Shown piece by piece: positions 16,098-57,624 of a stretch of DNA of 64,000 nucleotides (its first letter is position 1; the number at the start of each line of letters is the position of its first letter). This DNA is from Casimicrobium huifangae (GTDB lineage Bacteria; Pseudomonadota; Gammaproteobacteria; Burkholderiales; Casimicrobiaceae). Position numbers and translations under genes: made by a program. Under the pieces are notes generated by a model. It saw nothing but the letters and a program-made list of their open reading frames with translations, did no database searches and was not told where the DNA came from. The stretch lies in the NCBI RefSeq assembly GCF_009746125.1, contig NZ_CP041352.1, positions 3,084,436 to 3,148,435 on the forward strand, given 5' to 3'.

Positions 16098-16220
16098 AAC
16101 AGCCTGATCGATAGAATGGCTTTTTCATTGGGCTCTGCGCGGTAAATCGCTGAAAGTCGACTTTTCATAAAAACGCACATGTAGCCCGTTTGCAGTCGTC
16201 ATTTCAACGAATAGCTGATC
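16098..16220. repeat. Intergenic palindromic repeat, family A, copy 1
   Basis: About 123 nt, from AACAGCCTGATCG to GAATAGCTGATC. It shares with copies at 31944, 45284, 51045 and 57505 the ordered blocks AACAGC, TGGGCT, a central AAAGTCGA, AGCCC and a terminal AGCTGAT. The two halves are roughly reverse-complementary. It lies between the TRAP terminator and the broken secreted-protein gene. Confidence 0.65.
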
Positions 16221-16333
16221 GCGCGACCAAGCCAGGTGCAAATTTTTTTATGCCGCCTGCGATCTGGCAGCCGCCCAAGTTGGCACAATTTCTCCATCGA
16301 TGCCGTCTGACGTGGCATCAAACGGGGGTGCAT

Positions 16334-17920
16334 ATGCTGTACGGAAGACTGGCTGCAGTTCGCGCGGCAACAGCGCGGTGCGTTCGCTTGTTGACTTTGA
16401 GCACCATCGCGGGCGCGACGGCAGTGCTCTCGACGGTAGCGCACGCACAAACCACAGCCTTCTCCTATCAGGGGAAGCTGACCGACGGAGGGGCGCCAGC
16501 CACTGGCAGCTACGACCTGCAGTTCCGCCTGTTCGATACCAGCGCCGTAGGCACCGGCGTGCAGCAAGGGACGGCGATGGTGCTGCCTGCCGTAGCAGTG
16601 GACGCCGGCATCTTTACGGTAGCGCTCGACTTCGGGGCCAACGTCTTCGACGGCTCGGCCCGATACCTGGAGATTGGCGTGCGTCCTGGCAACTCGCCCA
16701 GTGCCTTTGTGCTGCTGGCGCCGCGCCACCCGATCGCTTCCTCTCCTTAGGCGGTGCAAACGCTCAATGCGCAGCAGCTGGGTGGCGTACCGGCCAGCCG
16801 CTACGTGGCGGCGGCGCCGAACGGGTACGTCGGTGTCGGCACGGCCAATCCACTGTCGGGCCGGCTGCATGTCGTCGGCGGTGGTACCACCGCGGTTTAC
16901 GCGGATGGCGGCAGCGCAACCGGCGTGCAGGGCATCAGCACGAGCGGCGTTGGTGTTCGCGGTGCCAGCAACAGTTTTGAGGGCGTGCGTGGCGAAACGG
17001 CCGGCACCGCCAGTGGCGGTGTCGTTGGTTACAACGTGTCCGGGGCCGGTTACGGCGTCTACGGCGCCAGTGAGGGCGAAGCCGTGCGCGGCCAGAGCAC
17101 GGCCGGAACGGGGGTCATGGGCACCAGCACCAGCGGCGCCGGGGTGCGTGGCAACAGCATCTCGTCGGTGGGCGTTTGGGGTACCAGCAGTTCGTTCGAA
17201 GGCGTGCGCGGTGAATCAGCCGGGGCCAGCTCCGGCGGTGTGGTCGGCTACAACACCAGCGGCACCGGACCCGGCGTATATGGCTCTGGTGCCGGCACCG
17301 GCGCCGGCGTCTCGGGCGTCAGCGTCACTGGCTCCGGTGTGTTCGGCCAAAGCTCGGCCACCGCCACCACAGCCGCAGCGGGCGTCTATGGCAAGGGCCT
17401 CGGCAGCGGCGGCATCGGTGTCATTGGTGAGGCCAACGTGACGAACGCAGTTGGCGTGTTCGGTGTGAGCAGCAGCGCGGATGGCTTTGGTGTCTACGCC
17501 CGGGCACTCAACAGCCAAGGTGCCCGCGCCCTTTACGTTGATGGCACGGCAACGCAAACCGCATCGTTTGGCGGCATCATCAAGGCGGCCGTCGAAGTGG
17601 TTGGCAACGGACCATCGGGTGCCTACATCAACAAGTGTTACAACGGCGTGAGTGGCGCGTCCAGTCCCAACACCAACTGCGGCATCAGCATTACGTCGGT
17701 CGCGTCCGGGTGGATTCGGGTGACATTGCCGTTTGATGTGACCAACCGACTGTATTCGGTTGCTGCCGAGTTCAACTCTGCTGGCAGCTTCGCCTCTGGT
17801 GGATACAAGATCGGGGCCAACTATCGGCGCTTTTCTTCGACGCAGGTGGATGTGTTCACCTTCATCAGCGACGGCACCAACAACACCATCAGCGCGACTT
17901 TCACGCTGATGGTGTTTTGA
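16334..17920 (+). pseudogene. Secreted repeat protein (tail-fibre/beta-helix-like) interrupted by an in-frame TAG
   Basis: One reading frame runs from ATG 16334 to TGA 17918-17920 but is cut by TAG at 16748-16750. Before it lie a signal peptide (cleavage near VAHAQ) and a domain with FSYQGKLTDGGAPATGSYDLQFRLFD and FVLLAPRHPIASSP. The frame resumes at once with AVQTLNAQQLGG. In relatives this junction normally reads ...PYAV..., so TAC to TAG is the simplest change. The C-terminal 389 codons hold GVxG/GVRG-type short repeats, including a 73-codon near-duplication (about 16946 and 17165), then a compact C-terminal domain. An intact protein would be about 528 residues. Read-through or sequencing error cannot be excluded. 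Confidence 0.7.
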
Positions 17921-17922
17921 AG

Positions 17923-18579
17923 ATGGAGGCCTCCTCTGCCCGGTGGCGCGACAAGATTGGCAGACGATGCCGAAACGCGGCGATCGTTGCCCTTGCCTGC
18001 GTTTGTGCGGCTAACCCGCCGATGTCGCAGGCGGCGCCGCTCATGTCCGGCGGCCCCTACGCAATTGTCAGTGACGTTGCCCTTGCCGGGTCGGCACCGA
18101 TGGCTGCGGGCAGCTACCGCATCGTCGCGACTGTTGGGGAAGCAGCAACCACTGGTCCCGGTGCTGCAGGCGGCTACCGCGTTTTCGCCGGGTTCTGGCA
18201 AGGCGAGCGATTCATCCCGCAGTGCATGCTGGATATAGACGGCAACGGTGTGGTCGAACCAGCCTTTGACGGGCTGCTCATCACCCGTGCCCTGAACGGT
18301 CTGCGTGGTCAGCCACTGGTCGACGGCGCGCTGGGCACGGGCGCGCAGTACACCGACCCCGCCCAGATTCTTGCCCGCATAAATCTTGATGCGCTGGATG
18401 TCGATGGCGATCAGAAGTCGCTCAGCTCGACAGATGGCCTGATCATCGTTCGCGTCATGTCCGGCATCCGGTCCGACAATCTGGTCGCTGGTGCGACAGG
18501 TCCGGGCGCGACGAGAATGTCGTGGGCACAAATCCGCAATCACCTGAACAACATCTGCAGCGCGGGGCTGGCGCCATAA
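17923..18579 (+). CDS. Secreted protein with dockerin-like C-terminal repeats
   Basis: This 218-residue protein of unknown function has a signal segment (ALACVCAANPPMSQAAP) and then GGPYAIVSDVALAGSAPMAAGSYRIVATVGEA, a motif seen in secreted choice-of-anchor-type proteins. The C-terminal 110 residues contain two EF-hand-like calcium loops, LDIDGNGVVEPAFDGLLITR and LDVDGDQKSLSSTDGLIIVR, each followed by a helix, as in type I dockerins. A related tail ends the RCC1 protein at 46788-48554. It follows the broken repeat gene by 2 nt and was probably co-transcribed with it. A TTG at 17917 is an alternative start. Confidence 0.7.
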   Translation: MEASSARWRDKIGRRCRNAAIVALACVCAANPPMSQAAPLMSGGPYAIVSDVALAGSAPMAAGSYRIVATVGEAATTGPGAAGGYRVFAGFWQGERFIPQCMLDIDGNGVVEPAFDGLLITRALNGLRGQPLVDGALGTGAQYTDPAQILARINLDALDVDGDQKSLSSTDGLIIVRVMSGIRSDNLVAGATGPGATRMSWAQIRNHLNNICSAGLAP

Positions 18580-18603
18580 CGCGCCAGTCGACAAACGACA
18601 GAT

Positions 18604-19503
18604 TTACGACGCCGGTTTGAGCTTCAACAGACGATCAGCGTAGTCCTGCCACGGCGCATCCTTGCCGACACCGTCGAACACGCCCTCACGGGCGAGGCTG
18701 GCAATCCAGTCGTGCTTCTCGGCAATCGGCGCCGTCATCGTGGGCGCAAGGCCTGCTTCCCTCACCGTGTTCGCCGCTTCGCGCATCTCCTCAGCCCGGC
18801 GTTTGCCATGCTGCACCACGCGGCTGAAGAAGTAGGCACCCTGCTTTTCCCAGTCGATGCCTGGGAAGGTCTCGCGCAGCGTGTCGAGCATCGCTGCCTC
18901 CACGCCGTAGCGGCGCGCCGTGGTGAAACTCTCGATCACCAGCGCTTCCAGTCCCTTGATCATGATGCTGCGCGACATTTTGGTCGCCGACGCCAGCCCG
19001 ATCTTGGGTGACACCGGGGTGAGGTTAAAGCCGAGCGGACGCAGCCGGTCAGCCAGCCGCAACGCCTGCTTGCCACCCAGCAGCATGGGCACTGCGATGC
19101 CGTAGGGCGGCACCGAGGTCATCACGCCCGCCTCGACGTAGTGCCCGCCGGCTTCTTCGATGGCGATGGCGGCCTGTTTCTTGGTGCCGGGCGACGCTGA
19201 ATTGAGATCAAGAAAGGTAGCGCCGCGCTGCATGAGCCTTGCCGCCTCCTGCGCCACTTCCAGCGTGTTCGACGCGGTGACGGCCGAGATGATCAGGTTC
19301 GCCTTGCTGCACACGTGGCGTGCCGACTCGCAGGCGACCACACCGTGGGCTTGTGCGTGCAGCCGCTGCGCGCCGCCCATCAGCGCATCGGCAAACTTGA
19401 CGTCCCAAGCACCCACCCACGCAACGCCCTTGGCACGCAGTGCGTTGGAGAAAATCTTGCCGACTTCGCCGTAGCCGATCACACCGACATCGAGATTGGC
19501 CAT
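18604..19503 (-). CDS. NAD(P)-dependent dehydrogenase of the 6-phosphogluconate/3-hydroxyisobutyrate fold with DUF1932 C-terminus
   Basis: A 299-residue protein. The N-terminal Rossmann motif is VGVIGYGEVGKIFSNALRAKG; the middle has NLIISAVTASNTLEVAQEAA and FLDLNSASPGTKKQAA, typical of beta-hydroxyacid dehydrogenases. The C-terminal helical domain (SIMIKGLEALVIESFTTARRYGVEAAML) matches the DUF1932 group. It is followed in the transcript by nothing obvious and preceded by a Bug receptor on the same strand 60 bp upstream, suggesting uptake and oxidation of one hydroxy acid. The substrate is unknown. Confidence 0.85.
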   Translation of the reverse strand: MANLDVGVIGYGEVGKIFSNALRAKGVAWVGAWDVKFADALMGGAQRLHAQAHGVVACESARHVCSKANLIISAVTASNTLEVAQEAARLMQRGATFLDLNSASPGTKKQAAIAIEEAGGHYVEAGVMTSVPPYGIAVPMLLGGKQALRLADRLRPLGFNLTPVSPKIGLASATKMSRSIMIKGLEALVIESFTTARRYGVEAAMLDTLRETFPGIDWEKQGAYFFSRVVQHGKRRAEEMREAANTVREAGLAPTMTAPIAEKHDWIASLAREGVFDGVGKDAPWQDYADRLLKLKPAS

Positions 19504-19563
19504 CGCTGCCTCCGTACCGCTGTTATGAGAGTCGCTCAGCGCACGCGTCGACGCGCGGTCGCG

Positions 19564-20592
19564 CTACTGCTTCGGGATTTTCGCGCGTTCGATGACGTCT
19601 GCCCAGCGTTTGATGTCCCGCTCCAGCAGTTCCGCCTGCTGCTCCGGCGTGCTGCTTTGTGCCACCAGCGTCAGCTCGGACAGGCGCTGCTTGACGTCCG
19701 GCAAGGCAAGAATGCGCACCAGCTCGCGGTTGAGCCGGGCGATCACGTCTTTCGGCGTCTTCGAAGGCACGGCAAGACCATTCCACGATGCTGCGCTGAA
19801 ACCGGCGAGTGAGCCACCTGCCTCACGGGCAATGGGCACCTCCGACAGTTGCGGTGCGCGGTGGTCGCCCAGCAGCGCCAGCGGTCGTAGCGCTTTCGAC
19901 GAAATCTGCGGCATCAGCGGGCCAAGAATATCCACCATCGCATCGATACTGCCGCCACGCAGCGCGGAAATCACCGGTGGCGTCCCATTGAACGGCACCA
20001 CCTGCGCATCGATCCCTGCCGCACTCCGGAACAGTTCGGCGGCGAGATTCTGCGTGGTGCCCACCTGCGGCGTACCAATGTTGAGCTTGCCAGGATTGGC
20101 TTTGGCGTAGGCCAGCAGCTCGGCGAAAGTCTTGAAACGCCCGCCCTCGGCAACTGCGATAGCCAGATCGAAGGCGGCCAGTTTGGATACCGGCGCGAAA
20201 TCCTTGCGGGTGTCGAACGGCAACGATTTGAATAGCGCGGCGCTGACGGCTGTGCCACTGGAGATCAGCAGCAAGGTGTGGCCATCGGCGTCCGCCTTGG
20301 CCACCTGCTCGCCGGCGATCACGCCGCCGGCACTGGGCTTGTTTTCAATGACGACTGGTTGCCCCAGCGCTTCGGAAAGCTTCTGCCCGACCGTGCGAGC
20401 AGTGATGTCGGCCGCACCGCCTGGTGCGTTCGGCACAACAATCTTCAGCGGCTTCGCGGGAAATGACTGCGCCGATGCAAAAGCGCACAGCATCAGCAGC
20501 GACGCCGCAACAATGGGCCGCAGGACGCGCCGGGTGACGAACATTGAGGTGTGGACCAACATGGCTAGCGAGACGATGTCTGAAACCGCCAT
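19564..20592 (-). CDS. Bug-family (TTT) periplasmic receptor
   Basis: This 342-residue TctC-like receptor shows FPAKPLKIVVPNAPGGAADI, VVIENKPSAGGVIAGEQ and the later LNIGTPQVGTTQNLAAELF segment. The signal peptide is clearest when read from the internal ATG at 20544 (MFVTRRVLRPIVAASLLMLC, cleavage near FASAQ). The longest frame starts at 20592, and neither start has a strong ribosome site. No TctAB permease is nearby. It pairs with the downstream DUF1932 dehydrogenase gene. The ligand is unknown. Confidence 0.86.
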   Translation of the reverse strand: MAVSDIVSLAMLVHTSMFVTRRVLRPIVAASLLMLCAFASAQSFPAKPLKIVVPNAPGGAADITARTVGQKLSEALGQPVVIENKPSAGGVIAGEQVAKADADGHTLLLISSGTAVSAALFKSLPFDTRKDFAPVSKLAAFDLAIAVAEGGRFKTFAELLAYAKANPGKLNIGTPQVGTTQNLAAELFRSAAGIDAQVVPFNGTPPVISALRGGSIDAMVDILGPLMPQISSKALRPLALLGDHRAPQLSEVPIAREAGGSLAGFSAASWNGLAVPSKTPKDVIARLNRELVRILALPDVKQRLSELTLVAQSSTPEQQAELLERDIKRWADVIERAKIPKQ

Positions 20593-20614
20593 TGTCTCGC
20601 CAACGCAGTTTGCC

Positions 20615-20638
20615 CGCAGCGCCAGTTTCGGCGCTGCG
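20615..20638 (-). terminator. Hairpin between helicase and Bug genes
   Basis: CGCAGCGCC (20615-20623) and GGCGCTGCG (20630-20638) form a perfect 9-bp stem with a 6-nt loop, 20 bp beyond the helicase stop on the minus strand. No T-run is present. Confidence 0.45.
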
Positions 20639-20658
20639 CTTTGTGCAGTTACCGGCGG

Positions 20659-22896
20659 TTACTCGCCGCCCTGCTCGCCCGCCATGCGTGCGGCGTATTC
20701 CGCCTGTTTGGCTGCGCGACGTGCAGCGCGGTTGCCGCCCTCAGCTGGCTCGGTGTAGGCCGGGCCTGCCGGTTTGTCGCCACGCCGCTGCGCACGATTC
20801 TCGTGGGCGAACGGCCCGCGAGTTTCCGCGCTGAAACCACCGCGTGCCTCACGCGGAGCGCGTTCGCTGCGCTCGGCAAAGCCGGCTTGCGGACGCTTGA
20901 ACGGCGCATCGAACTGGTTGCTGAATCCACCGCGCGCCGGTGCCGGACGATCAGTCCACGCCGCAGACGCCCCGCGGTCGCCACGGCCAAAGCCGCGATC
21001 ACCACTGAAGCCGCTGTCGCGTTCACGGCGCTCAAAACCACCGAAGCTGCGTTCGCGGCTCTCGCCGTGGTCCGCGCGGCCGGCGTACGGAGCGCGCTCG
21101 AAGCGGCCCGGACGATCATCGCGGGTCGGGCGACCAAAGCTCTCCGACCGCTCCGGGCGATCCCCACGCTCTGCGCCCCAACGGGCCGAGCGCTCGTTTT
21201 CGACGCGCGGCAAGCGGCCTTCACGCGGGGCAACATCACGCTCGAAGCGGGCGCCACTGCGATCATCGGCAGCACGCGGCGCATCGAAGCGCGGCGCATA
21301 TTCACGGTCACGCGCCGGGGCACGATCACTCCGATCAAAGCGATCAGGGCGGTCGTCAGCGAAGCGGCTACCGCCGCGATCATCTGCCTGGCGCGGACGA
21401 TCCGCCGGCGCGCGATCAAACGAACGCTCGCCGCCGAAGCCTGCACCACCGGCGCTACGACCGCGATAGCCGCCCGCACCCGCCGAGGCATCACGCTCGA
21501 AGCGACCGCGCGCACCTTGACCGCCGCCAAAACCACCTCCGAAGCCACGATCGCCACCGCGACCACCGTAGCCACCGCGGCCGCCACCAAAGCCACCGCC
21601 GTAGCCGCCCGTTGACGGCGGCTTGCTACGCGGCTCGTGGCCTTCGACCACGGCTTCGCCAATGCGCTGCTGGGTGAAGTGTTCAATATTGCGAATCTTG
21701 AAACGGTCGCGGAAGCCCGCGAGCGTGATGGCCAGGCCGCTGCGACCAGCACGACCGGTACGGCCGATGCGGTGCACGTAATCTTCCGGCTTCATCGGCA
21801 AGCCATAGTTGATGACGTGCGTGATGGTCGGCACGTCGATACCGCGCGCAGCAACGTCGGTCGCAATCAGCACCTTGATGGTGCCGTCGCGCATTGATTT
21901 GATGCGGCGGTTGCGCAGCGTTTGTGGCATCGCGCCGTGCAGCGCGGATGCGGCATAGCCTGCTTCGCGCAGCTCATCAGCCAGTTCGTCGGTTTCGATC
22001 TGCGTGGCGGTGAACACCACGGCCTGCTCCATCGATTCGTCCTGCAGGTAGTGCTCGAGCAGCGCGTTCTTGTGCGCCATGTCGTCAAACCAGTGCAGGC
22101 GCTGCTCGATGTTCTCGTGCGTGTCTTGCGCGGTGGCGAGTTCGATCTTCTGCGGCTCGCGCATCACATGCGAAGCCAGCTCCATGATGCGCGGCGCGAA
22201 GGTAGCGCTGAACATCAGCGTGCGGTCGCGACGAGCTGTGGCGACGTGGATGGCTTCCAGATCCTCGGAGAAACCAAGGTCCAGCATGCGGTCGGCTTCA
22301 TCCACCACCAGCGTCTGCACGCAGTCAAGACCAATCTGGCCGTTGCGATTGAGGTCAAGCAGGCGACCCGGTGTGGCGACGACAAGCTGCGCACCGCGCA
22401 GCTCCATCAGTTGCTTGCCGAACGGCGTACCGCCGACGACATTGGCCACACGCACGCCCTTGACGAAGCGAACCAGGCGGATCGCCTCCTGCGCCACCTG
22501 CTGCGCGAGCTCACGCGTGGGGCAGAGCACCAGCACACGCGGGCTGGCGCCGGCACGACGGCTGCGGGCGATCTGTTCGCCCTTGGGCATCGGCGGCGAA
22601 TCCAGCAGCACCTGCAGCGCGGGCAGCAGGAAGGCGGCGGTCTTGCCACTACCGGTCTGGCTCGACACCATCCAGTCGCCACCAGCCAACGCGGCCGGAA
22701 TAGTGGCGACCTGAACTGCGGTCGGCTGGGTGTAGCCCAGCGCGTCGACGGCTTTCAGCAGCGAAGAATCGAGGTTGAGCGCCGCAAAGCCATTTGCTTC
22801 GGCGGCAGATTCACTGCCCGCGTCAACGATGGCCTCGTCAGCGAGGAAATCAGGGGATTGCAGCTCGGCGGCTGCATTTTCATTATGCAAACTCAT
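20659..22896 (-). CDS. DEAD-box RNA helicase with long RGG-rich C-terminal tail
   Basis: A 745-residue ATP-dependent RNA helicase. Motifs in order: Q motif (LGYTQPTAVQ), Walker A (SQTGSGKTAAF), Ia (PTRELAQQ), GG and TPGRLLDL, DEAD (VDEADRMLD), SAT (MFSATFAP), V (LIATDVAARGID) and VI (YVHRIGRTGRAG). These fill about residues 35-410, like RhlE/DeaD-type helicases in rRNA maturation or cold adaptation. The last roughly 300 residues are low-complexity Gly/Arg/Asp/Phe repeats (GGYGGRGG, RFERD, RFDAPRA types), much longer than in E. coli RhlE, and end in a basic RAARRAAKQAEYAARMAG helix. The long open antisense frames there are a composition artefact. Confidence 0.94.
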   Translation of the reverse strand: MSLHNENAAAELQSPDFLADEAIVDAGSESAAEANGFAALNLDSSLLKAVDALGYTQPTAVQVATIPAALAGGDWMVSSQTGSGKTAAFLLPALQVLLDSPPMPKGEQIARSRRAGASPRVLVLCPTRELAQQVAQEAIRLVRFVKGVRVANVVGGTPFGKQLMELRGAQLVVATPGRLLDLNRNGQIGLDCVQTLVVDEADRMLDLGFSEDLEAIHVATARRDRTLMFSATFAPRIMELASHVMREPQKIELATAQDTHENIEQRLHWFDDMAHKNALLEHYLQDESMEQAVVFTATQIETDELADELREAGYAASALHGAMPQTLRNRRIKSMRDGTIKVLIATDVAARGIDVPTITHVINYGLPMKPEDYVHRIGRTGRAGRSGLAITLAGFRDRFKIRNIEHFTQQRIGEAVVEGHEPRSKPPSTGGYGGGFGGGRGGYGGRGGDRGFGGGFGGGQGARGRFERDASAGAGGYRGRSAGGAGFGGERSFDRAPADRPRQADDRGGSRFADDRPDRFDRSDRAPARDREYAPRFDAPRAADDRSGARFERDVAPREGRLPRVENERSARWGAERGDRPERSESFGRPTRDDRPGRFERAPYAGRADHGESRERSFGGFERRERDSGFSGDRGFGRGDRGASAAWTDRPAPARGGFSNQFDAPFKRPQAGFAERSERAPREARGGFSAETRGPFAHENRAQRRGDKPAGPAYTEPAEGGNRAARRAAKQAEYAARMAGEQGGE

Positions 22897-23003
22897 ATGT
22901 TCTCGCCGCGCGCAAATAGAGAGCGCGGACGGCGATCCTTCAAAACAATTCAGGAACGATGTTGATCAACGACGAAAAACGCATCGACCAACAATCGGAA
23001 CAA

Positions 23004-23164
23004 GGGAAAGACTGATCGAGGCTCCGCGAGATTGCGCCCGGCGGATCGGGATGGATGGCGAGGCACAAAACGCAGCCGTAGCGGGGCTACGGCGAGGCTT
23101 TGTAACGCTGCCAGCCGCCCGAGGCGACGATGCGCAACTCGCGAGGCCTTGATCAGTCTTTCCC
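23004..23164. repeat. 161-bp imperfect palindromic element (MITE/REP-like), family B
   Basis: Outer arms 23004-23030 and 23138-23164 are reverse complements over 27 nt with three mismatches (GGGAAAGACTGATC / GATCAGTCTTTCCC at the tips). The centre is a perfect hairpin, GCCGTAGC-GGG-GCTACGGC (23075-23093). Between them the strands are partly complementary (TTGCGC next to the arm). It lies in the 530-bp gene-free stretch before the lower-GC gene group. No open reading frame inside it is convincing. Confidence 0.7.
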
Positions 23165-23428
23165 ACAAGACGTTTGGGCGGCCTGGCGAACACTACCCGC
23201 TTGATCGGGGCGGTTCGGCATGAAATGGCGCCGGGGTCTCGCCGGAGCAGCCGCTTTCGGGGCGATCCGGGAACACTGTGGGGCGAAGCACTAATCAGCG
23301 AACGAAGTCGCTTTTTCAAGCGACAGCTAATATTTTGGCATGTTGCAGCGCAAAAAGCCAGTGTTGGGCTGATTATTTGTTGAGCGAATGCTCTGGCCGC
23401 ATTGCACCTTCTGCGGATAATTTGAGCG
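23165..23428. other. Gene-free spacer after the palindromic element
   Basis: No supported gene. It contains a perfect hairpin GTCGCTT-TTTC-AAGCGAC (23307-23324). It also contains text (CAGCT, TTTTGGCATG, TTGGGCTGAT, about 23324-23385) that loosely resembles the left half of repeat family A; this is too degenerate to call. GC content falls toward 23400. Confidence 0.4.
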
Positions 23429-24979: not shown

Positions 24980-24991
24980 AGGAAGCACACC

Positions 24992-31894: not shown

Positions 31895-31943
31895 GCTGCA
31901 GCGGGAGTCTTGCGCGGCAGAGCTGTGGCGGGCTCCGCGCTCT

Positions 31944-32064
31944 ACAGCATTTCAACGAAACGCCCACTTAATAAGGGCTCGCTGGTTATTTTGTGCCTTA
32001 GTCGACTATTGAGGTAATTGACCTGTAAGCCCAATTCGGATGAGGCTTTTCACGAAAAGCCGAT
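31944..32064. repeat. Intergenic palindromic repeat, family A, copy 2
   Basis: About 121 nt from ACAGCATTTCAACGAAAC to GGCTTTTCACGAAAAGCCGAT. It contains GGGCTC, central TTAGTCGACTA and AAGCCCAATT blocks in family order, and the right arm reverse-complements much of the left. It lies between bfd and bfr and could affect their separate expression. Confidence 0.65.
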
Positions 32065-45283: not shown

Positions 45284-45363
45284 AACAGCTTTTCAGCGAG
45301 ATTGCCTGTCAATCGGGGCTTGACGCCCTATTTCGGTGAAAGTCGATCGGCATCGGTGCTTTT
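45284..45363. repeat. Intergenic palindromic repeat, family A, half copy 3
   Basis: The left arm and centre are present (AACAGCTTTTCAGCGAGA, GGGGCTTGACGCCC, ATTTCGGTGAAAGTCGA, GGTGCTTTTT), but the right arm is missing, so this copy is truncated after about 80 nt. It lies between the YkgJ and thioesterase genes. Confidence 0.55.
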
Positions 45364-49723: not shown

Positions 49724-49820
49724 CACCCCACCGGCGCCTTTAGCAGGGCGCGAGTGATCGAACAGTGCACGTCGTCGGGCGATTTGTTTCGCTGGGCGGA
49801 ATTCTGCGTACACATATGTC

Positions 49821-49848: not shown

Positions 49849-49873
49849 TTCATAAGCTGTACGAGGTGTTGCT

Positions 49874-51046
49874 GTGCTTGCAAATCGAGAACACTGTCAT
49901 ACTGAACGTCCTTTTTTGGCCGTTTGCGACCGCACATGGCGTTCAGCGGTGGCGTCTGTCATGCTATTGGCATCGTCGATCGCGTTGGCGGCACCGGCCC
50001 GCGACATCGTGATCGCACAGGTGGCGCCGCAAACGGGCGTCCAGGCCAGCTCGGGCAAGGCCTACACCGCCGGTCTGCGGCTGGGATTCACTGCCGCCAA
50101 CGCGAACGGCGGCATCAATGGCGTCCCGGTGCGGCTGGTCACGGTTGACGATGCCTACAAGCCCGAAGAAACCGTGCGGCTGGCCAAAGAACTGCTCGCC
50201 AGGGAATCGCCGGTGGCCTTTGCCGCCACGGTGGGCACCGCCAACGCCGATGCCCTGATCAAGGCCGGCGTACTGACGGAAAGCGGCGTGCCGCTGGTGG
50301 GCCCGAGTTCCGGCGCCGGCAGCGTGATTGGCCAGCCGGGCATTTACAGCACCAAGGCCAGCTACGCCGATGAGGTGAACCAGCTCTTTTCCACGCTCAA
50401 CAGCATGGGGCTGTCACGTGTGGCTGTGCTTTATCAGGACGACGGCTATGGCCGCGACCTGCTCAACAGCGCCAACGCACTGGCCCCGAAATACAAGATC
50501 GAGCTGGTGGCCCGCAGCCCCTACGACCGGATCACCGGCAACGTCGAGAAGCCGATCAACGACTTGCTCAAGGTCGATACGCAAGTCATCTTTCTCGCCG
50601 CCATTTCGGCGCCGGCAGCCAACTTCATCAAGGGTTACAAGCAGCGTGGCGGCACCGCCATGCTGATCGGCCCGTCGCCGGTGGATATTGCCTATCTGCA
50701 GAAGAACCTCAGCAAGGAGCAATTGCGCGGCTATGTCGCCTCCACCGTGGGGCCGATCGAAACCCGCACCTCGCTGCCCATCATCCGCGACTACCTGAAG
50801 CTCAAGGCTGCCAATCCCTCGCCAGACTACGGCATTCGCTCGCTTGAGGGCTACGTGACAGCGCGGGTGATCGTGGCTGGGCTGCAGCGCGGCAAGGCCA
50901 CGCCCGATGGCCTGCAGCAGGGGCTGAAGTCGATCCGCGCACTTGACCTGGGCGGCGTCAGCGTCGACTACTCGGACTTGAAGCGCGGCGGCAGCAACTA
51001 CGTCGATTTCGTCACCATCGACCGTTCCGGCTCGATTGTGCGTTAA
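49874..51046 (+). CDS. ABC-type branched-chain amino acid/aromatic binding protein (LivJ-like)
   Basis: A 390-residue periplasmic type 1 binding protein: signal (AVASVMLLASSIALAAP), then IVIAQVAPQTGVQASSGKAYTAGLRLGFTAANANGGING and the VALYQDDGYGRDL-type segment. It would bind amino acids or aromatic acids for an ABC importer. No permease follows directly; LivHMGF lies 6.6 kb downstream. GTG 49874. A strong palindrome precedes it, and repeat copy 4 begins on its stop codon. Confidence 0.88.
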   Translation: MLANREHCHTERPFLAVCDRTWRSAVASVMLLASSIALAAPARDIVIAQVAPQTGVQASSGKAYTAGLRLGFTAANANGGINGVPVRLVTVDDAYKPEETVRLAKELLARESPVAFAATVGTANADALIKAGVLTESGVPLVGPSSGAGSVIGQPGIYSTKASYADEVNQLFSTLNSMGLSRVAVLYQDDGYGRDLLNSANALAPKYKIELVARSPYDRITGNVEKPINDLLKVDTQVIFLAAISAPAANFIKGYKQRGGTAMLIGPSPVDIAYLQKNLSKEQLRGYVASTVGPIETRTSLPIIRDYLKLKAANPSPDYGIRSLEGYVTARVIVAGLQRGKATPDGLQQGLKSIRALDLGGVSVDYSDLKRGGSNYVDFVTIDRSGSIVR

Positions 51047-51168
51047 CAGCCATTCGCTGAAACCAGCATCCGAACTGGGCTTGGGTGCCGATTTCCCATA
51101 AAGTCGAGTTAGTGCAAAAACGTGCTTTAAGCCCAATTGAAATGCGGATTTTCATGAAAAGCTGATTG
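51045..51168. repeat. Intergenic palindromic repeat, family A, copy 4 (most complete)
   Basis: About 124 nt, beginning on the TAA stop of the binding-protein gene. Left half AACAGCCATTCGCTGAAACC...GAACTGGGCTTGGGTGCC reverse-matches the right half GTGCTTTAAGCCCAATTGAA...TTTTCATGAAAAGCTGATT over roughly 44 nt with scattered mismatches; central CATAAAGTCGAG. It could fold into one long hairpin, like ERIC elements in size and form. Confidence 0.7.
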
Positions 51169-51284
51169 ACCAGGCTGTGGCATTGCGTCCTGCCGACGCA
51201 AGCCGCCTGACGAAGGGAAGTTTCTCGCGTCCATAAAATCGGGCAATCGCGTCGGTAACGGCGCCCGCTTTCTGCCGCCCGCTC

Positions 51285-51947
51285 ATGCTCGACTGCATCA
51301 CCCTCGAACCCGACTCACCCGCCACCGCCTGTGTCATCTGGATGCATGGCCTTGGCGCTGACGGCAACGATTTCGTCCCCATCGTCCCTGAGCTGAATCT
51401 GCCCACCGGGCACGGCGTGCGCTTTGTATTCCCCAACGCACCAACGATGCCAGTCACCATCAACGGCGGCTATGTCATGCGCGCCTGGTACGACATCATC
51501 TCTGCCGAGCTGGACAAACGCGCCGACGAGGGCGGCGTGCGCCGCAGTCAGGCGCTGATCGAGGAACTGATCGCCGACCAGCGCAGCAAGGGCATTGCCG
51601 CTGATCGCATCCTGCTCGCGGGTTTCTCACAGGGTGGCGTGATCGCCTTGCAGACGGGTTTGCGACACCCGGACAAGCTCGCCGGCATCATGGCGCTCTC
51701 CACCTATCTGGCCTGCGCTGACTCGCTCGGGGTTGAGGCTTCGGCCGCCAACCGGCAGATTCCGCTGTTCATGGTGCATGGTTCGATGGACCCGGTGATT
51801 CCGGTCGCGCTCGCCAAGCTGTCGAAGGCACGACTGGAGACCCACGGCTACAAAGTCGAATGGCATGAATACGGCATGCCGCACTCAGTGTGCGCCGAGG
51901 AAATTGACGACATCGCGGCGTTCCTGAAGCGCGTGCTGGCGCTTTGA
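51285..51947 (+). CDS. Carboxylesterase/acyl-protein thioesterase-like alpha/beta hydrolase
   Basis: A 220-residue hydrolase of the phospholipase/carboxylesterase (EstB, APT1-like) family: VIWMHGLGADGNDF oxyanion loop, nucleophile GFSQGGVIAL, acid in MVHGSMDPVIPV and His in YGMPHSVC. Complete and typical in length. ATG 51285 (MLDCITLEPD). Confidence 0.92.
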   Translation: MLDCITLEPDSPATACVIWMHGLGADGNDFVPIVPELNLPTGHGVRFVFPNAPTMPVTINGGYVMRAWYDIISAELDKRADEGGVRRSQALIEELIADQRSKGIAADRILLAGFSQGGVIALQTGLRHPDKLAGIMALSTYLACADSLGVEASAANRQIPLFMVHGSMDPVIPVALAKLSKARLETHGYKVEWHEYGMPHSVCAEEIDDIAAFLKRVLAL

Positions 51948-51978
51948 TCCGGCTTCATTCCATCAACAGCATGCAGCG

Positions 51979-52941
51979 TTGCGCATCGTGGCGGTGACGT
52001 CCTGCCCGTCGCCGCTCGACGCGCTGCTTGATGAGCTGCACGATGCGGACGTACGCCGCCTCGCCTGGAGCATCGGCTCGCCAGCACTGTTCGACGCCCG
52101 CCGCCCCGAATGGCAAGGCCGGCTGCGCGACGATGACTGGTCGCAGCAAGAGCTGACGCGCTGCCACGAATGGCTGCTCGCGCTCGACCGTGATCCGGCG
52201 TCGCTGTACGAGGCGCTGGGCGACCCGACAGTCGCCACGCCGCTCGGCCATACCTTCGAAAAGTTCGTGCTGTTCTGGCAGGCGGCGCGACCAGATGTGC
52301 GCGCCGCGACGCGCGGCCTGATCGTACGTGAGGGCGGGCGCACCCGCGGCGAATTCGACATCGTGCTGTTGCGCCACGATGGCGTGATTGAAACCCTGGA
52401 AGTGACGGTCAAGTTCTACCTGAATCTGCGCCCCGATCTCGGTATCGATGGCTGCATCGGTCCGCGCGCCTTCGACCGCATGAGCGACAAATACGCCAAG
52501 ATGACCACGCGGCAGACCGATCTCGGCCACACCGACGCCGGGCGCGCCACCATCGCACGCTGGCTGGAGCAATGCAGTGGCGAGACGGTCGACGCTGATG
52601 CGCTGCTTGTGGAAAACCACGCCCTCGCCAGAGGCTATGTGTTTCACACAGCGGCAGACGTGGCGATACCGGTCGAGCTGTCACCCGTCCACAACCGCGG
52701 CCTGTGGCAGACCGACGAACAGCCGCTGCCAGACGTCGTACCGGACCAGTGGCGCCTGCTCAGTGGCCGCGAGTGGCTGGGCAACTATCGCGGCAACCCG
52801 CAGGAAAGCGGATGGCCCATTGATCCGGCAATGCCACGACTATTGGCGCAGGTCGCGGGCGTTGGCGAAGACGCCACCGTGTGCGAGGTTGCGCGTCGCT
52901 TTGTCGTGCGCGCAGACGCCGGTCTGCTCAAATCGGTCTGA
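51979..52941 (+). CDS. DUF1853 family protein
   Basis: A 320-residue protein of the DUF1853 group. It has HTFEKFVLFWQ near residue 95, RTRGEFDIVLLRHDGVIETLEVTVKFYLN and CIGPRAFDRMSDKYAKM, then a C-terminal WLGNYRG. The E-x-D-I and E-V-T-V-K text looks like a PD-(D/E)xK-type nuclease core, which is suggestive only. The track start is TTG 51979; GTG at 51988 is an alternative. It ends 1 nt before the acyltransferase start. Confidence 0.8.
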   Translation: MRIVAVTSCPSPLDALLDELHDADVRRLAWSIGSPALFDARRPEWQGRLRDDDWSQQELTRCHEWLLALDRDPASLYEALGDPTVATPLGHTFEKFVLFWQAARPDVRAATRGLIVREGGRTRGEFDIVLLRHDGVIETLEVTVKFYLNLRPDLGIDGCIGPRAFDRMSDKYAKMTTRQTDLGHTDAGRATIARWLEQCSGETVDADALLVENHALARGYVFHTAADVAIPVELSPVHNRGLWQTDEQPLPDVVPDQWRLLSGREWLGNYRGNPQESGWPIDPAMPRLLAQVAGVGEDATVCEVARRFVVRADAGLLKSV

Positions 52942-52942
52942 A

Positions 52943-55063
52943 ATGACGATAAACGACCGCCTGCCGGCAGCCACCGATTACCGGGCCGATATCGACGGAC
53001 TGCGCGCAGTCGCCGTCCTGTCGGTGATGCTCTATCACCTGAGCGCACACTGGCTGCCCGGTGGTTTTGTCGGCGTTGACATCTTCTTCGTCATTTCCGG
53101 CTTTGTGGTGAGTGCCTCGCTCACCCATGCGCCGAGCGACCGCTTTCACCGCTTCGTCGCCTTTTTCTATGCCCGACGGCTGCTGCGCATCGGCCCGGCG
53201 CTGGTGCTGGTGTTGCTGACCTCGGTGCTTGCGGCTTCGCTGTTCATTCCACGCGCGTGGCTGAGCGAATTCAACGAACGCACGGCGCTGTACGCGTTCT
53301 TCGGTCTCAGCAACTGGGTCTTGCAAACCAACGCAGACACCTACTTCGCGCCTCGCGCGGAGTTCAATCCTTACACCCACACCTGGTCGCTTGGCGTGGA
53401 AGAGCAGTTTTATCTGGCCTTCCCCTTCCTGTTTTTCGCCTGGGTCAAGCTGCGCGACAGCAAGCGAGGCCGCGTTGCGGCAACCGCGGCGCTGGCGCTG
53501 CTTGGCGCTGCATCGCTCGCAGCCTGCGTGTGGGCGACGAAACAGATGCCAGCTGCTGCCTTCTACGGCATCGCGTTTCGCTTCTGGGAGCTGGCCGTTG
53601 GCGTGCTGCTGTTTCAGCTGACCGCGAGCAACAGCAACGCAGAAGCACCCGATCGTCGCAATGTGTCGAGGTGGCTGGCGAGTGCCGGACCATGGCTGGG
53701 TGCTGCGGCTATTGCTGCCAGCTTCGCGTTGGTCGACGCCACGGCGTTCCCGTGGTTCTGGGCGCTGCCACCGGTGCTGGCGGCGGCAGCAGTCATCGGG
53801 GGTTGCAACGCCAATGTCGAACATCCGGTGCGCCGCCTGCTGGCTCATCCGATGGCCGTCTGGATTGGCAAGCGCTCCTATTCGCTCTACCTCTGGCATT
53901 GGCCGGTGTTTGTGCTGTTGCGCTGGACCATGGGGCTGGACGACTTCGCCACCCGTGCTGCAGCCCTGCTGTTGTCATTTGTGCTGGCCACACTCGCCTA
54001 CCGATGGGTTGAATTGCCGGTTCGCCAGCACCGCGGCCTTGCCCGACTATCACCGGCGATGCGAATCGGCGTGCTGCTTGCCATGATTGTGCTGGGATGG
54101 GGAGCCGCCCGCCTGATCCTGACCCAGCAACGGCACCTGAGCCTCAGCACGGTGGCACGCAACGCCGACGAGTGGTACGTCACCAGCCGCATGCCGGTGC
54201 AACTGATGCCACCCGAGACAAGTACGCGGCACTGTGAGGTTGGTGTCCGATATCGTGCACTGGCCGGTGGTCAGGTCATCTCATTCGAGCCCGCCCGCTG
54301 CCCGAATGTGCCCAAACCTCTGAACGGCAAGCTCAGCGTGATTGGCGACTCGCATGCCACCGCCTACTTGCCGCTGTTCGATCAGTTGAGCGCGGAGCTG
54401 GGCGTCAAAGTCAACGTCTATACCTACCCCGGTTGCGCGTTTGTCGACCTTCGGATGCCGATGAACATCGGTCGCGGACCAGGCTGCGTTGCATTTGCCC
54501 GCGAGGCAGCGGCCGAAGTAGCACGCGACGCAAGTCCCTCGGATGTACTGTTCCTCGCCTCCCTGCGGCAGCCGCGTTTTGCCGATCAATGGGCGGCGTT
54601 TGACCAGAGCGAAGTGCTTGCCGTTGCCCAAAGCGATACGCTGCGGCAGTGGTCACGTGAAGCACGCGATGAGGCGCCGGTGCTGCTGCGACCGGTGCTG
54701 GCGGCAGGCGTGAAGGTGCTCTTCGATGCACCAAAACCTGTGTTCTTGAGCCCGACCTTCCGCTGTGCAGACTGGTTCAATCGCGGCAATCCGGTGTGTC
54801 GAGGCGGCCTGCAGCAAACGCGTTCCTCGCTGGAGAATCTGCGCGCGCCGGTTATGGACAGCATCAGCGCTGTCGCCAGCGGCAATCCCGCGATTGCTGT
54901 GTGGGACAGCTTGCCGCTGCTGTGCCCGGAGGCGACCTGCAGCGCCCTGCAGGGGCAGCGCCCACTGTTCTTCGATGGTGACCACCTGAGCGCTTATGGC
55001 AACGCACGGCTCTATCCGGCGTTCCGCAGTACGGTGACGGCGCTGATGACGACGGGACGTTAA
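52943..55063 (+). CDS. Acyltransferase-3 family O-acyltransferase with SGNH domain (OafA/OatA type)
   Basis: A 706-residue membrane protein. The N-terminal acyltransferase-3 domain (ten or more helices) starts YRADIDGLRAVAVLSVMLYH and has FVGVDIFFVISGFVVS and YTHTWSLGVEEQFYLAFP. The C-terminal periplasmic SGNH hydrolase-like domain shows VIGDSHATAYLPLF and FFDGDHLSAYGNARLYP with Asp and His. Such proteins O-acetylate lipopolysaccharide or exopolysaccharide. ATG 52943, one base after the DUF1853 stop. The frame is open from 52577. Confidence 0.92.
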   Translation: MTINDRLPAATDYRADIDGLRAVAVLSVMLYHLSAHWLPGGFVGVDIFFVISGFVVSASLTHAPSDRFHRFVAFFYARRLLRIGPALVLVLLTSVLAASLFIPRAWLSEFNERTALYAFFGLSNWVLQTNADTYFAPRAEFNPYTHTWSLGVEEQFYLAFPFLFFAWVKLRDSKRGRVAATAALALLGAASLAACVWATKQMPAAAFYGIAFRFWELAVGVLLFQLTASNSNAEAPDRRNVSRWLASAGPWLGAAAIAASFALVDATAFPWFWALPPVLAAAAVIGGCNANVEHPVRRLLAHPMAVWIGKRSYSLYLWHWPVFVLLRWTMGLDDFATRAAALLLSFVLATLAYRWVELPVRQHRGLARLSPAMRIGVLLAMIVLGWGAARLILTQQRHLSLSTVARNADEWYVTSRMPVQLMPPETSTRHCEVGVRYRALAGGQVISFEPARCPNVPKPLNGKLSVIGDSHATAYLPLFDQLSAELGVKVNVYTYPGCAFVDLRMPMNIGRGPGCVAFAREAAAEVARDASPSDVLFLASLRQPRFADQWAAFDQSEVLAVAQSDTLRQWSREARDEAPVLLRPVLAAGVKVLFDAPKPVFLSPTFRCADWFNRGNPVCRGGLQQTRSSLENLRAPVMDSISAVASGNPAIAVWDSLPLLCPEATCSALQGQRPLFFDGDHLSAYGNARLYPAFRSTVTALMTTGR

Positions 55064-55159
55064 GCGCCCGGCCGACGCGCAGATTGGCGAGGATGCGGCC
55101 GGCAAGCGAGAACGAAGCGATGGCGAATTCGTCAGGCGGCCATACGCTAGAGTTGCGTG

Positions 55160-56164
55160 ATGTCTGCGCCCTGCATCGATATCCACAGTCATTTCTTCCC
55201 GCGTAACGCACCCGACTTCGCCCGGAAACTCGGCGCCGGATCGGGGCCGTGGGTGACGCTGCACGACCATGGCGATGGCACCGGCATGATGATGCTTGGC
55301 GACAAGCCGTTCCGACCGGTGCATTCGGCGTTGTGGGACACGGCAGCGCGGCTGGTCGAGATGGATGCCAGCCACGTTGAAACGCAAATCATCTGCGCGA
55401 CGCCGGTGATGTTTGCCTACGACGCGCCCGCCGTGGAGGCAGCTTATGTCGCTGCCTCGTACAACGACCTTGCGATCGAGTTCTGCGCACCTTCAGGCGG
55501 GCGCATCCGCGCGCTCGCACAGGTGCCACTGCAGGACGCCGACCTTGCCTGTGCCGAGCTGACCCGCGCGATGCGCGCAGGATGCGTCGGCGTGCAGATT
55601 GGCAACCACGTCGGTCCGCGCGAAATGGACGACGAAGGCATCGTGCGTTTTTTGGCGCATTGTGCGCATGAGGGCGCTGCCGTGCTGGTGCATCCCTGGG
55701 ACATGATGGGCGGCGAACGGCTCAAGCGCTGGATGAGCGCCTGGACTGTCGCGATGCCAGCCGAGACGCAATTCGGCATCATGGCAATGATTCTGGGCGG
55801 CGCGTTTGACCGGCTGCCGCGTGATCTCCGCATCTGTTTTGCGCATGGCGGCGGTGGTTTTCCGTACCTGCTTGGCCGCCTGGAGAATGCGTGGCATCGC
55901 CGTGACGTCGTGCGTGGTGATTCGAAACATCCGCCGAGTCACTATCTCGACCGTTTCAGCGTCGACAGCGCGGTGTTTGACCCACGCGCGCTGCGGCTGC
56001 TGATCGATACGATGGGCACAAATCGCATCATGGTTGGCAGCGACGCGCCCTTCCCGCTCGGCGAAGAGCACATTGGCGATCTGGTGCGCAATCAGCCGGA
56101 CGTTAACCCCGCTGACCGGGCCGCAATTTTGAGGGACAATGCAAAGACCTTTTTCCGGCTCTGA
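55160..56164 (+). CDS. ACMSD-like amidohydrolase (decarboxylase family)
   Basis: This 334-residue protein is close to 2-amino-3-carboxymuconate-6-semialdehyde decarboxylase (NbaD/ACMSD). Metal motif CIDIHSHFFP (His9, His11), VHPWDMMGG, FAHGGGGFPYLLGR and VGSDAPFPLGEEHIG are the family blocks. It would remove CO2 from the ring-cleavage product of 3-hydroxyanthranilate or a similar semialdehyde. GTG 55157 is an alternative start. The dioxygenase that would supply its substrate is not adjacent; a Liv-type transporter cluster follows. Confidence 0.85.
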   Translation: MSAPCIDIHSHFFPRNAPDFARKLGAGSGPWVTLHDHGDGTGMMMLGDKPFRPVHSALWDTAARLVEMDASHVETQIICATPVMFAYDAPAVEAAYVAASYNDLAIEFCAPSGGRIRALAQVPLQDADLACAELTRAMRAGCVGVQIGNHVGPREMDDEGIVRFLAHCAHEGAAVLVHPWDMMGGERLKRWMSAWTVAMPAETQFGIMAMILGGAFDRLPRDLRICFAHGGGGFPYLLGRLENAWHRRDVVRGDSKHPPSHYLDRFSVDSAVFDPRALRLLIDTMGTNRIMVGSDAPFPLGEEHIGDLVRNQPDVNPADRAAILRDNAKTFFRL

Positions 56165-56196
56165 GTCCACGTGCGTTGGACGCATGCCGGAAACCG

Positions 56197-56218
56197 AAAA
56201 TGCACTATGTTGCATTTT
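56197..56218. promoter_or_regulatory. Palindrome upstream of the Liv-type cluster
   Basis: AAAATGCA-CTATGT-TGCATTTT (56197-56218) has perfect 8-bp arms, 76 bp upstream of the binding-protein ATG and 33 bp after the amidohydrolase stop. It is followed by two more T (six in all), so it is either an operator or a weak A/T-rich terminator. Confidence 0.5.
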
Positions 56219-56293
56219 TTGTGGAAATCATCTAGATTCATACGCAAATCTGCGGCCACTCAGGCTGTTCTGCACGTAAACGGAGGAACTATC

Positions 56294-57469
56294 ATGCATA
56301 AACTGGTCATCGCATTGCTGGCTGCCGGCATTGTCTCGGGGGCAGCGTTCGCGCAGTCGTCGCCACTAAAAATCGGCTTCGTGGCCGAACTCTCCGGCCC
56401 GCAGGCACCACTCGGACAGGACCAGTACGATGCGCTGATGCTGGTGATTGAGCAGAACGGCGGCAAGCTCGGCGGTGTGCCGGTGCAGGTCATCAAGGAA
56501 GACTCGCAGCTGAAGCCCGACGTCGCCAATCAGGTGGTCGACAAGCTGCTCGAGAAAGACAAGGTGCCGATCATCACCGGCGTCACCTTCTCGAACATCA
56601 TGATGGCCGTGCACAAGAAGATCACCGACAAGGGCGTCTTCCTGATCGGCTCCAACGCGGGGCCATCGCCGGTGGCTGGCGCACAGTGCTCGCCGTATTT
56701 CTTCAGCACCTCCTGGCAGAACGACAATCAGGCTGAGGTCGTCGGCAAATACGCCAGCGACAAGGGCTACAAGAACGTGATCGCCATGGCACCGAACTAT
56801 CAGGCCGGCAAGGATTTCGTAGCCGGCTTCAAGCGCTCGTTCAAGGGTGGCACCATCACCGACGAGATCTACACGCCGCTTAACCAGCAGGATTTCTCGG
56901 CCGAGTTGGCACAGGTCGCCAGCAAGAAGCCCGACGCGCTCTACGTGTTCTATCCGGGCGGCCTCGGTGTCAATTTCGTCAAGCAGTTCCAGCAGGCTGG
57001 TCTCAACAAGAGCATCACCGTCATGAGCACCTCGACCGTCGATGGCAGCACTCTGCCTGCGCTGCGCGACGCTGCGATCGGCATGCTGTCGGGCACCTTC
57101 TGGGGCCCTGACTTCCCGAACGAAGCCAACCAGAAATTCGTCGCGGCCTTCGAGAAGAAGTACAACCGCATTCCCTCGCAGTATGCGGCGCAGGGCTATG
57201 ACGCGGCGCAACTGCTCGACAGCGCGATCCGCAAGGTCAAGGGCAAGGTGGAGGACAAGAAGGCCTTCCACGCAGCGCTCAAGGCGGCCGACTTCAAGTC
57301 GATCCGCGGCAACTTCAAGTTCGGCAACAACCAGTTCCCGGTGCAGGACATGTACATGTTCGACGTCGCCAAGGACAGCAAGGGCCGCGTGAGCCTGCGG
57401 ACCGTCGCCAAGCCGCTGGTGAACCACGTCGATGCCTACGCGGCGCAGTGCAACATGAAGGCGCTGTAA
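56294..57469 (+). CDS. ABC-type substrate-binding protein (LivJ/aromatic type) of the Liv cluster
   Basis: This 391-residue periplasmic receptor starts at ATG 56294 with GGAGGA upstream. Signal MHKLVIALLAAGIVSGAAFAQ; then LKIGFVAELSGPQAPLGQDQYDALMLVIEQNGGKLGG and VYVFYPGGLGVNFVKQFQQAG-like text. It is the probable receptor for the LivHMGF permease downstream. The ACMSD-like gene before it suggests an aromatic acid or amino acid ligand. Repeat copy 5 separates it from livH. Confidence 0.9.
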   Translation: MHKLVIALLAAGIVSGAAFAQSSPLKIGFVAELSGPQAPLGQDQYDALMLVIEQNGGKLGGVPVQVIKEDSQLKPDVANQVVDKLLEKDKVPIITGVTFSNIMMAVHKKITDKGVFLIGSNAGPSPVAGAQCSPYFFSTSWQNDNQAEVVGKYASDKGYKNVIAMAPNYQAGKDFVAGFKRSFKGGTITDEIYTPLNQQDFSAELAQVASKKPDALYVFYPGGLGVNFVKQFQQAGLNKSITVMSTSTVDGSTLPALRDAAIGMLSGTFWGPDFPNEANQKFVAAFEKKYNRIPSQYAAQGYDAAQLLDSAIRKVKGKVEDKKAFHAALKAADFKSIRGNFKFGNNQFPVQDMYMFDVAKDSKGRVSLRTVAKPLVNHVDAYAAQCNMKAL

Positions 57470-57504
57470 GCGAAGCCTTCGCCGAAGTGAAGGGCGAAAT
57501 CGCG

Positions 57505-57624
57505 ATCAGCTTTGGCATGAAACGTATATTTCATGCGGGCTGGCGGCGCTTTTTGCCTGATATCGACATAACGCGTCAATGGCGTTCAGGCCCCGATTGA
57601 ATGGGGTTTTTGCAGAAAAGCTGT
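57505..57624. repeat. Intergenic palindromic repeat, family A, copy 5
   Basis: About 120 nt between the binding-protein gene and livH: ATCAGCTTTGGCATGAAACG, GCGGGCTGGCGGCGC, central GATATCGACATAACGCG, CAGGCCCCGATTGAATGGGG and TTTTTGCAGAAAAGCTG in family order. It is inserted inside an otherwise compact transporter operon. Confidence 0.65.

Follow-up and report, generated by a model that had tools for sequence, protein, structure and literature searches.

A family of 122-bp dyad-symmetric intergenic elements with species-specific sub-sites in Casimicrobium huifangae

Dispersed bacterial palindromes are usually classed as hairpins or as decaying mobile repeats. The ERIC sequence, for example, has a length of about 127 bp, and the DNA uptake sequence of the Neisseriaceae is a short word. 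This study deals with a family of palindromic elements in Casimicrobium huifangae, noticed in a 64,000-nucleotide stretch of its single-contig 4.47-Mb genome (bases 3,084,436-3,148,435 of contig NZ_CP041352.1), and this whole stretch is referred to as the window. In an initial annotation made from the letters of the window, four full copies and one half copy of an element were reported, and all of these were recovered in place by nhmmer profile searches, with the E-values given in Table 1.

Several described systems come close to such a family. Miniature inverted-repeat transposable elements (MITEs) of the ERIC/Correia type are palindromic, usually intergenic, and occur in tens to hundreds of copies (PMC10969869). 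Compensatory changes are common in REPINs, which have invariant 16-bp ends and are associated with RAYT genes, and co-evolution of REPINs and RAYTs has been proposed (PMC3116915). The E. coli gyrase motif is 130 bp long, symmetric, and AT/GC-phased, with gyrase attracted downstream of transcribed loci (PMC6379681), and gyrase preferences are given as species-specific and palindromic over about 120 nt (PMC12324340). The DNA uptake sequence of the Neisseriaceae is repeated throughout the genome and changes in concert from one related species to another (PMC3630211). Lastly, GalR acts through dimer sites upstream of several genes and through long-range interaction, and a restructuring of the chromosome has been proposed for it (PMC5110547).

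Extent and anatomy of the element family

With copy 4 of the window alone as BLAST query, 31 matches at E <= 1 were obtained in the genome, the query itself included. A profile built from 36 copies (31 from this genome, among them the four full window copies, and five from relatives) identified 38 copies at E < 1e-4 in 464 kb, i.e., the window and twenty 20-kb samples across the chromosome, while the best match in the same 464 kb read backwards reached only E = 1.5. In 1,183,565 bases, 97 copies were found at E < 1e-5, which extrapolates to about 366 per genome, and a covariance-model search returned at least 99 distinct sites. The genome search for further copies that the initial annotation proposed thus found many, which supports a palindromic family, about 120 bp in length, dispersed between genes. 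Of 72 profile scores in the two long blocks, 8 fell below 50 bits. The sequence had been described as not recognised, and indeed no Rfam family other than a tRNA reached its gathering score in the window. A literature search by title or abstract start, which was partial in coverage and not by sequence, returned no matching prior description and leaves absence from print unproven.

A model of the form found in this genome (the own-dialect model) had matches here and in 14 of the 16 other genomes of the genus. Outside the genus it had none in 43 genomes (0/19 from other genera of the family, 0/24 from other families of the order), in a search with strict filters that another dialect would escape. 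The close named relatives are metagenome assemblies of uncultured Burkholderiales or Betaproteobacteria. For genome G002, 400 kb gave 52 weak matches versus 17 in the reversed sequence, and a motif was likewise obtained from the reversed sequence in a free expectation-maximisation run.

The anatomy was derived from 82 full-length copies with flanks, of which 53 align without gaps between the halves; a shortening at this place by one base is seen in 21 and by two bases in 6, and the remaining 2 were misplaced. In the symmetrised profile of the 53 gapless copies, the element extends 61 bp to each side of a dyad inside TCGA, and its edges are sharp, as position 61 holds 0.61 bits of information and position 62 just 0.07. 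The size first estimated at about 120 nt was therefore about right and is corrected to 122 bp, some copies being 1-2 bases shorter. Conservation is highest in the core, in the GCCC 26-29 bp away from the dyad (96-100%), at T44 (92%), and in the AAAA of positions 52-55 (83-92%); towards the end, one base prevails at frequencies of 0.83-0.92 at positions 52-56 and of 0.42-0.72 at positions 57-61. At 13 and 14 bp from the dyad, A or T is found at 0.99 and 1.00, with A alone at just 0.49 and 0.40, and AAA/TTT runs at the A/T positions exceed expectation (0.45 vs 0.24 and 0.14 vs 0.03). Positions at which A and T are interchangeable but G and C are barred would be expected from minor-groove or shape reading. 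Together, the A-or-T positions, the near-fixed length, and the sharp edges suggest a dyad-symmetric protein-DNA complex. The information per site is about 92 bits, compared with about 13.6 bits that would be enough to mark 366 places.

The palindrome is a property of the consensus and not of each copy. Within a copy, the arms are identical at 0.500 of positions versus 0.496 between copies, and 224 of 1000 permutations were as high (53 gapless copies). When the palindrome was imposed as a structure on 36 copies, 62.0% of the cells could pair versus 61.6 +- 0.8% with shuffled partners (144/500 shuffles as high), and RNAalifold predicted zero consensus pairs, so that the check for compensatory changes by covariance model turned out negative. 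The claim that each element can form one long hairpin stands only in part: plus-strand folding z-scores of copies 1, 2, 4, and 5 are -0.15, -2.97, -2.75, and -1.53, so that two window copies lie below -2.7, and copy 5 reaches -2.74 on the other strand, but the symmetry is not kept copy by copy.

Sub-site dialects, shared sites, and genomic position

A distinct form of the element was found in genome G020, where six of the seven places listed in 80 kb keep the ends and the core, with AACGACC...GGTCGTT-like words replacing AAGCCC...GGGCTT. The pattern GGGCT-N21-GTCGA occurs 299 times in this genome (control 12), 234 times in G021, 194 in G011, 143 in G005, 31 in G001, and 30 in G023, and just 12, 12, and 14 times in G020, G007, and G003. 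Conversely, GTCGT-N21-GTCGA occurs 171 times in G007, 145 in G020, and 90 in G003, with 18 occurrences here (control 17). By these counts, the sub-site 34 bp from the dyad is GGTCGTT-like and not GGGCTT-like throughout the genomes of G020, G007, and G003. The second pattern also exceeds its control elsewhere in the genus (G011 28 vs 6, G021 26 vs 3, G009 22 vs 2) and beyond it (G025 77 vs 3, G028 62 vs 1, G031 46 vs 5), with smaller excesses in other genomes. The G028 matches listed are GC-rich and without A-tracts, look like coding sequence, and were therefore not counted as elements.

When the sub-site is left open, arms of the form CAGCTTTT-N48/49-TCGA number 169 here, 202 in G020, 187 in G007, 161 in G003, 318 in G023, and 264 in G001 (controls 0-5), and 1, 1, and 8 in G009, G010, and G022. 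The end and core words therefore lie at equal distance in six species. A comparison of 64 listed own arms with 38 listed G020 arms (61 bases each, end and core words fixed by the pattern, 49 positions free) showed strong differences at 12 of the 49 free positions, 11 of them within -46 to -26 and one at -22, while the arms are alike at the A/T positions -15 to -13 and at bases -5 to -3. Both sub-site forms are roughly palindromic about -34, which is what a protein dimer would need.

Cores like TTTTCGAAAG or TATCAATA, as against AGTCGACT, were seen at loci L096, L099, L094, and L098 of G006, G009, G010, and G022, and may represent a third dialect in another branch of the genus. A pattern for it (core TTTCGA) gave weak excesses only, e.g., 35 vs 14 in G006.

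Sites shared between species were searched with the own-dialect profile, by which copies of another dialect could be missed; alignments of relative loci are reliable for plus-strand loci only, and the tree of relatives is based on three genes with many missing rows. An element lies 101-234 bp upstream of the bacterioferritin gene (the copy 2 site) in 5 of the 11 genomes in which this gene was found (this one, G005, G001, G011, and G023). The copy 4 junction contains an element in G011 alone besides this genome (2/16), and copy 1 is possibly common to G023, 301 bp after the gene, among six genomes with a close relative of that gene. The copy 5 (liv) site is common to loci L199 and L201, and this pair is alike at all position classes; therefore, some sites have been inherited with little change. 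The stretches covered include 32 conserved gene junctions that can be compared with G021 and G011; the element is present in both in 2, in G021 only in 1, and in neither in 29. Over 14 shared-site pairs, agreement is 0.67 at high-information and 0.40 at low-information positions, whereas unrelated own copies would agree at 0.73 and 0.31, respectively. The motif thus appears to outlive most other sequence at a site, as it would under selection, in a test that is biased by the copies having been found via the motif.

Two further observations concern the G020 counterparts of window copies. At the junction orthologous to that of copy 3 (G020:C1:54697-54757), an other-dialect left arm is combined with a dissimilar right arm, perhaps as an intermediate. 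At copy 1, about 24 kb of G020 (C1 ~12200-36470) occupy the place of 3.5 kb in this genome (window 16008-19564).

Positions were assessed against genes called by a simple predictor made for the analysis. Of 97 copies, 2 are located at the ends of stretches and the other 95 in gene junctions; of these 95 placed copies, none is inside a predicted gene, and a few overlap a predicted gene end by at most 25 bp. Occupancy, at one copy per junction, is 25/144 for convergent, 55/703 for tandem, and 15/139 for divergent junctions. In tandem junctions, 46 of the 55 copies are nearer to the upstream stop (median 38 bp) than to the next start (98 bp), and the upstream-stop side is also preferred in G021 (9/15) and G011 (11/17). 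The finding that two window copies follow binding-protein genes and that one lies inside a liv operon was borne out by Pfam and is explained by this general habit of lying just 3' of a gene. Likewise, proximity to transporter and iron genes fits most of the five window copies by Pfam, but copies occur along the whole chromosome.

The copies are evenly spaced in this genome. For two contiguous blocks of 35 and 36 copies, the coefficient of variation of the spacing is 0.62 and 0.54, versus about 0.93 for random junctions (P 0.0026 and 0/5000 as low), and gaps below 4 kb number 0 and 2 where 8.2 and 9.6 are expected; nulls weighted by junction class gave similar results. Two long element-free gaps were noted (G000:C1:3298300-3334700 and 3367200-3411500, G000 being this genome), the latter with lower GC (0.597) and possibly an acquired island. 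The GC skew of the samples places the origin roughly near base 1 and the terminus near 2.3 Mb.

A putative binding platform and its rivals

The near-constant length, the sharp edges, the consensus-only symmetry, the A-or-T positions, the retention of the motif at shared sites, and the swap of the sub-site are the reasons for which the element is read, with moderate confidence, as a 122-bp dyad-symmetric putative binding platform, recognised as double-stranded DNA by a sequence-specific oligomeric protein or possibly by two. Dimers would occupy the palindromic sub-sites 34 bp to either side of the dyad, the DNA between them would be bent or wrapped by way of the central TCGA and the flanking A-tracts, and the element ends would close the complex. 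Such complexes may act as chromosome-organising or topological boundary sites and not as single-gene operators, given that most copies are found shortly after a gene end and that, in this genome, few are less than 4 kb apart; a chromosome-organising role is suggested by the position and, here, the spacing. The dialects would arise via co-evolution of the protein and its sites. It is a more tentative possibility that a genus-specific nucleosome-like or topological-boundary system, and with it a new class of architecture, is at hand, in which several hundred symmetric complexes of 122 bp and about 90 bits would be set mostly at gene ends, about every 12 kb, with a recognition code that is switched between species.

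Several observations weigh against a binding platform. Both the protein and its binding are postulated from sequence. Sites of about 92 bits are observed, and their origin without copying is hard to see. The sharing of sites between species is patchy, and agreement at the high-information positions of shared sites is slightly under that of unrelated own copies (0.67 vs 0.73). Convergent junctions are not clearly the richest class in G011 (7/52 convergent, 16/206 tandem, 10/52 divergent) or in G021 (6/53, 14/189, and 6/53, respectively, with 2 copies in no junction). Evenness of spacing gave P values of 0.17 and 0.014 for two stretches of G011 and of 0.68 and 0.54 for two of G021; clear evenness is therefore present in just one of four stretches of relatives, and even spacing belongs to this genome and not yet to the family. 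Pairwise identities of copies are spread more widely than those of permuted columns (sd 0.052 vs 0.040). In addition, folding is better in real copies than after column permutation (-37.5 vs -33.1, p 5e-6). Permutation in larger blocks narrows this gap, and whole arms swapped between copies still give a mean of -37.0 vs -37.5 kcal/mol, so most of the folding excess is local and stems from short-range neighbour effects within arms. A weak pairing excess within the sub-site (0.602 vs 0.564, P 0.024 in G020 arms; 0.424 vs 0.407, P 0.014 in own arms, where 8 registers were tried and the best is given) could stem from differences in quality between copies.

Among the alternatives, a mobile palindromic repeat of the MITE type (ERIC- or REPIN-like) survives best, although it is considered unlikely. 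Here, the elements would have been spread by a transposase, the dialects would be subfamilies of different transposases, and the divergence would mark old copies. This explanation agrees with the size, the copy number, the intergenic position on the 3' side, and the confinement to the genus under the own-dialect model, as well as with the variation of sites between species (copy 4 in 2/16 loci, copy 2 in 5/11 bacterioferritin genomes), the inherited likeness of the L199-L201 site throughout, and the excess of information to 92 bits, which copying would yield. No young copies were seen, however: the highest-scoring pair out of 124 distinct copies reaches 71.1 bits, versus 72.5 +- 3.9 in synthetic sets generated from the profile by independent sampling of 3-base blocks, and no pair shows ancestry beyond the shared profile, the likeness being equal to that of independent draws. 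At the 30 least informative positions, pair agreement is 0.298, the same as predicted by column composition (0.298; base composition alone predicts 0.265). The edges of the 53 gapless copies show no prominent direct repeat of 2-10 bp, the highest exact rate being 0.19 for 2 bp shifted into the palindrome, and compensatory changes are missing. Neutral decay of one master would not be expected to leave single positions degenerate to A or T either.

RAYT genes, which a REPIN would call for, do exist in this genome; a search of 1.18 Mb, or 26% of the genome, gave three (Table 1). All three in this portion are flanked by their own, unrelated palindromic repeats of GTAG type, and the element profile has no match within 500 bp on either side of them, the nearest element being 3-9 kb off; a REPIN was rejected on this account. 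One 16-base word of the RAYT-flanking repeats occurs 9 times in the 1.18 Mb, and G021 has one weak RAYT match (30%). A plasmid or phage origin was likewise rejected, as copy 4 has no match in plasmid and phage collections at E <= 0.01.

It is quite improbable that the elements are operators of a large regulon under one transcription factor. The palindromic sub-sites do resemble repressor half-sites, dialects could evolve in such a system, transport and iron genes are near the window copies, and 10 of 52 divergent junctions are occupied in G011. Operators would not be expected in about 366 copies that are evenly spaced in this genome, with convergent junctions as the richest class here and the stop-codon side taken by 46 of the 55 tandem-junction copies.

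Strong sites for DNA gyrase (or topoisomerase IV), in which the dyad would be the cleavage centre, the arms would wrap on the C-terminal domains, and transcription-linked supercoil sinks would result at gene ends, are very improbable. The E. coli gyrase motif is symmetric over 130 bp (PMC6379681), gyrase preferences vary by species and are palindromic over about 120 nt (PMC12324340), and size, symmetry, and location after gene ends fit. The AT content of the element peaks 4.5, 13.5, and 23.5 bp away from the dyad, and over the whole half-element a period of 9.75 bp is nearly as strong as one of 7.75 bp (power 8.43 vs 8.78). Within the arms (18-61 bp), AT content follows a period of 7.5 bp best, and not the 10.75 bp of gyrase; of the gyrase core preferences, -2A/+6T is present in the element, while -4G/+8C and +1G/+4C are absent. 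The near-invariant GCCC and the dialect swap at a single sub-site are also unlike a degenerate motif, and a gyrase site was rejected.

Finally, a transcribed hairpin (terminator, attenuator, or mRNA-stabilising element) is scarcely credible: the 3'-side location, arms that read like GCCC...GGGC followed by TTT, two window copies with z < -2.7 on the plus strand, and the weak sub-site pairing excess are set against no arm covariation, a G020 sub-palindrome followed by T T T/A C and not by a longer T run, and occupied divergent junctions (15/95 copies), and a long hairpin or cruciform was rejected on the pair counts, the empty RNAalifold prediction, and the arm-swap energies.

The family thus fails the hairpin and mobile-repeat tests made, and it has the appearance of giant DNA sites maintained as an array across the genome. 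Should a protein bind these elements, the spacing of bacterial chromosome domains would become directly testable, and the dialect switch would be a natural experiment on the joint change of a DNA-binding protein and hundreds of its sites.

Window copies and comparison with known systems

The copies in the window, the parts of its top-scoring copy, and the RAYT genes of this genome are listed in Table 1.

Table 1. Positions of element copies and sub-sites in the window and of RAYT genes elsewhere in the genome
Feature	Coordinates	Remarks
Copy 1, full, 122 bp	16098..16219	3' of TRAP transporter DctM gene (Pfam); nhmmer E 4.2e-18; copy in profile
Copy 2, full, 122 bp	31943..32064	Between bfd-like and ferritin-like (bfr) genes (Pfam); nhmmer E 2.1e-24; copy in profile
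Copy 3, half element	45284..45346	Comprises left arm and TCGA core, with no recognisable right arm; nhmmer E 5.5e-8 over profile 2-65; copy absent from profile
Copy 4, full, 122 bp, top-scoring in window	51045..51166	nhmmer E 8.6e-28; copy in profile
TCGA at copy 4 dyad	51104..51107	Symmetrised profile, 53 copies: G 0.95, then A 0.98, immediately right of dyad
Copy 4, left dialect sub-site, centre 34 bp from dyad	51060..51082	-46 to -26 holds 11 of the 12 strongly differing positions (of 49 free), own vs G020 arms
Copy 4, right dialect sub-site, mirror of left	51129..51151	GCCC 26-29 bp from dyad, 96-100% conserved in 53 copies
Copy 5, full, 121 bp (one base short)	57505..57625	Between binding-protein gene and LivH-like permease gene; nhmmer E 3.5e-21; copy in profile
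RAYT transposase genes (this genome, outside window)	G000:C1:2013623-2014150, 3283847-3284335, 4154822-4155319	46-49% identical to E. coli RayT

The element matches ERIC/Correia MITEs in size, palindromy, intergenic location, and copy number (97 in 1.18 Mb). It differs from them in having no kept arm pairing, no target duplication, and no related copies, and in dialects that are concentrated in one sub-site. The resemblance to ERIC or Correia elements proposed in the initial annotation is therefore not supported as far as a hairpin repeat is meant, since no sign of arm covariation, of copy descent beyond the shared profile, or of target duplication was seen. With REPINs, the element shares the layout of an inverted doublet, hundreds of extragenic copies, and the presence of RAYT genes in the genome; it lacks compensatory changes, near-invariant end words, and a RAYT gene flanked by the same repeat (3 genes in 1.18 Mb). 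Nearest in size and symmetry to a 122-bp element with its dyad at TCGA are the E. coli gyrase motif and BIME-2 sites, but the gyrase motif is degenerate, whereas the element has a near-invariant GCCC and a dialect swap at one sub-site. GalR sites lie upstream of several genes, while the element is a single compact symmetric unit of about 366 copies. The DNA uptake sequence of the Neisseriaceae comprises thousands of copies of a short word, as compared with hundreds of copies of a 122-bp dyad, but its dialects resemble those of the element in that both change in concert between related species.

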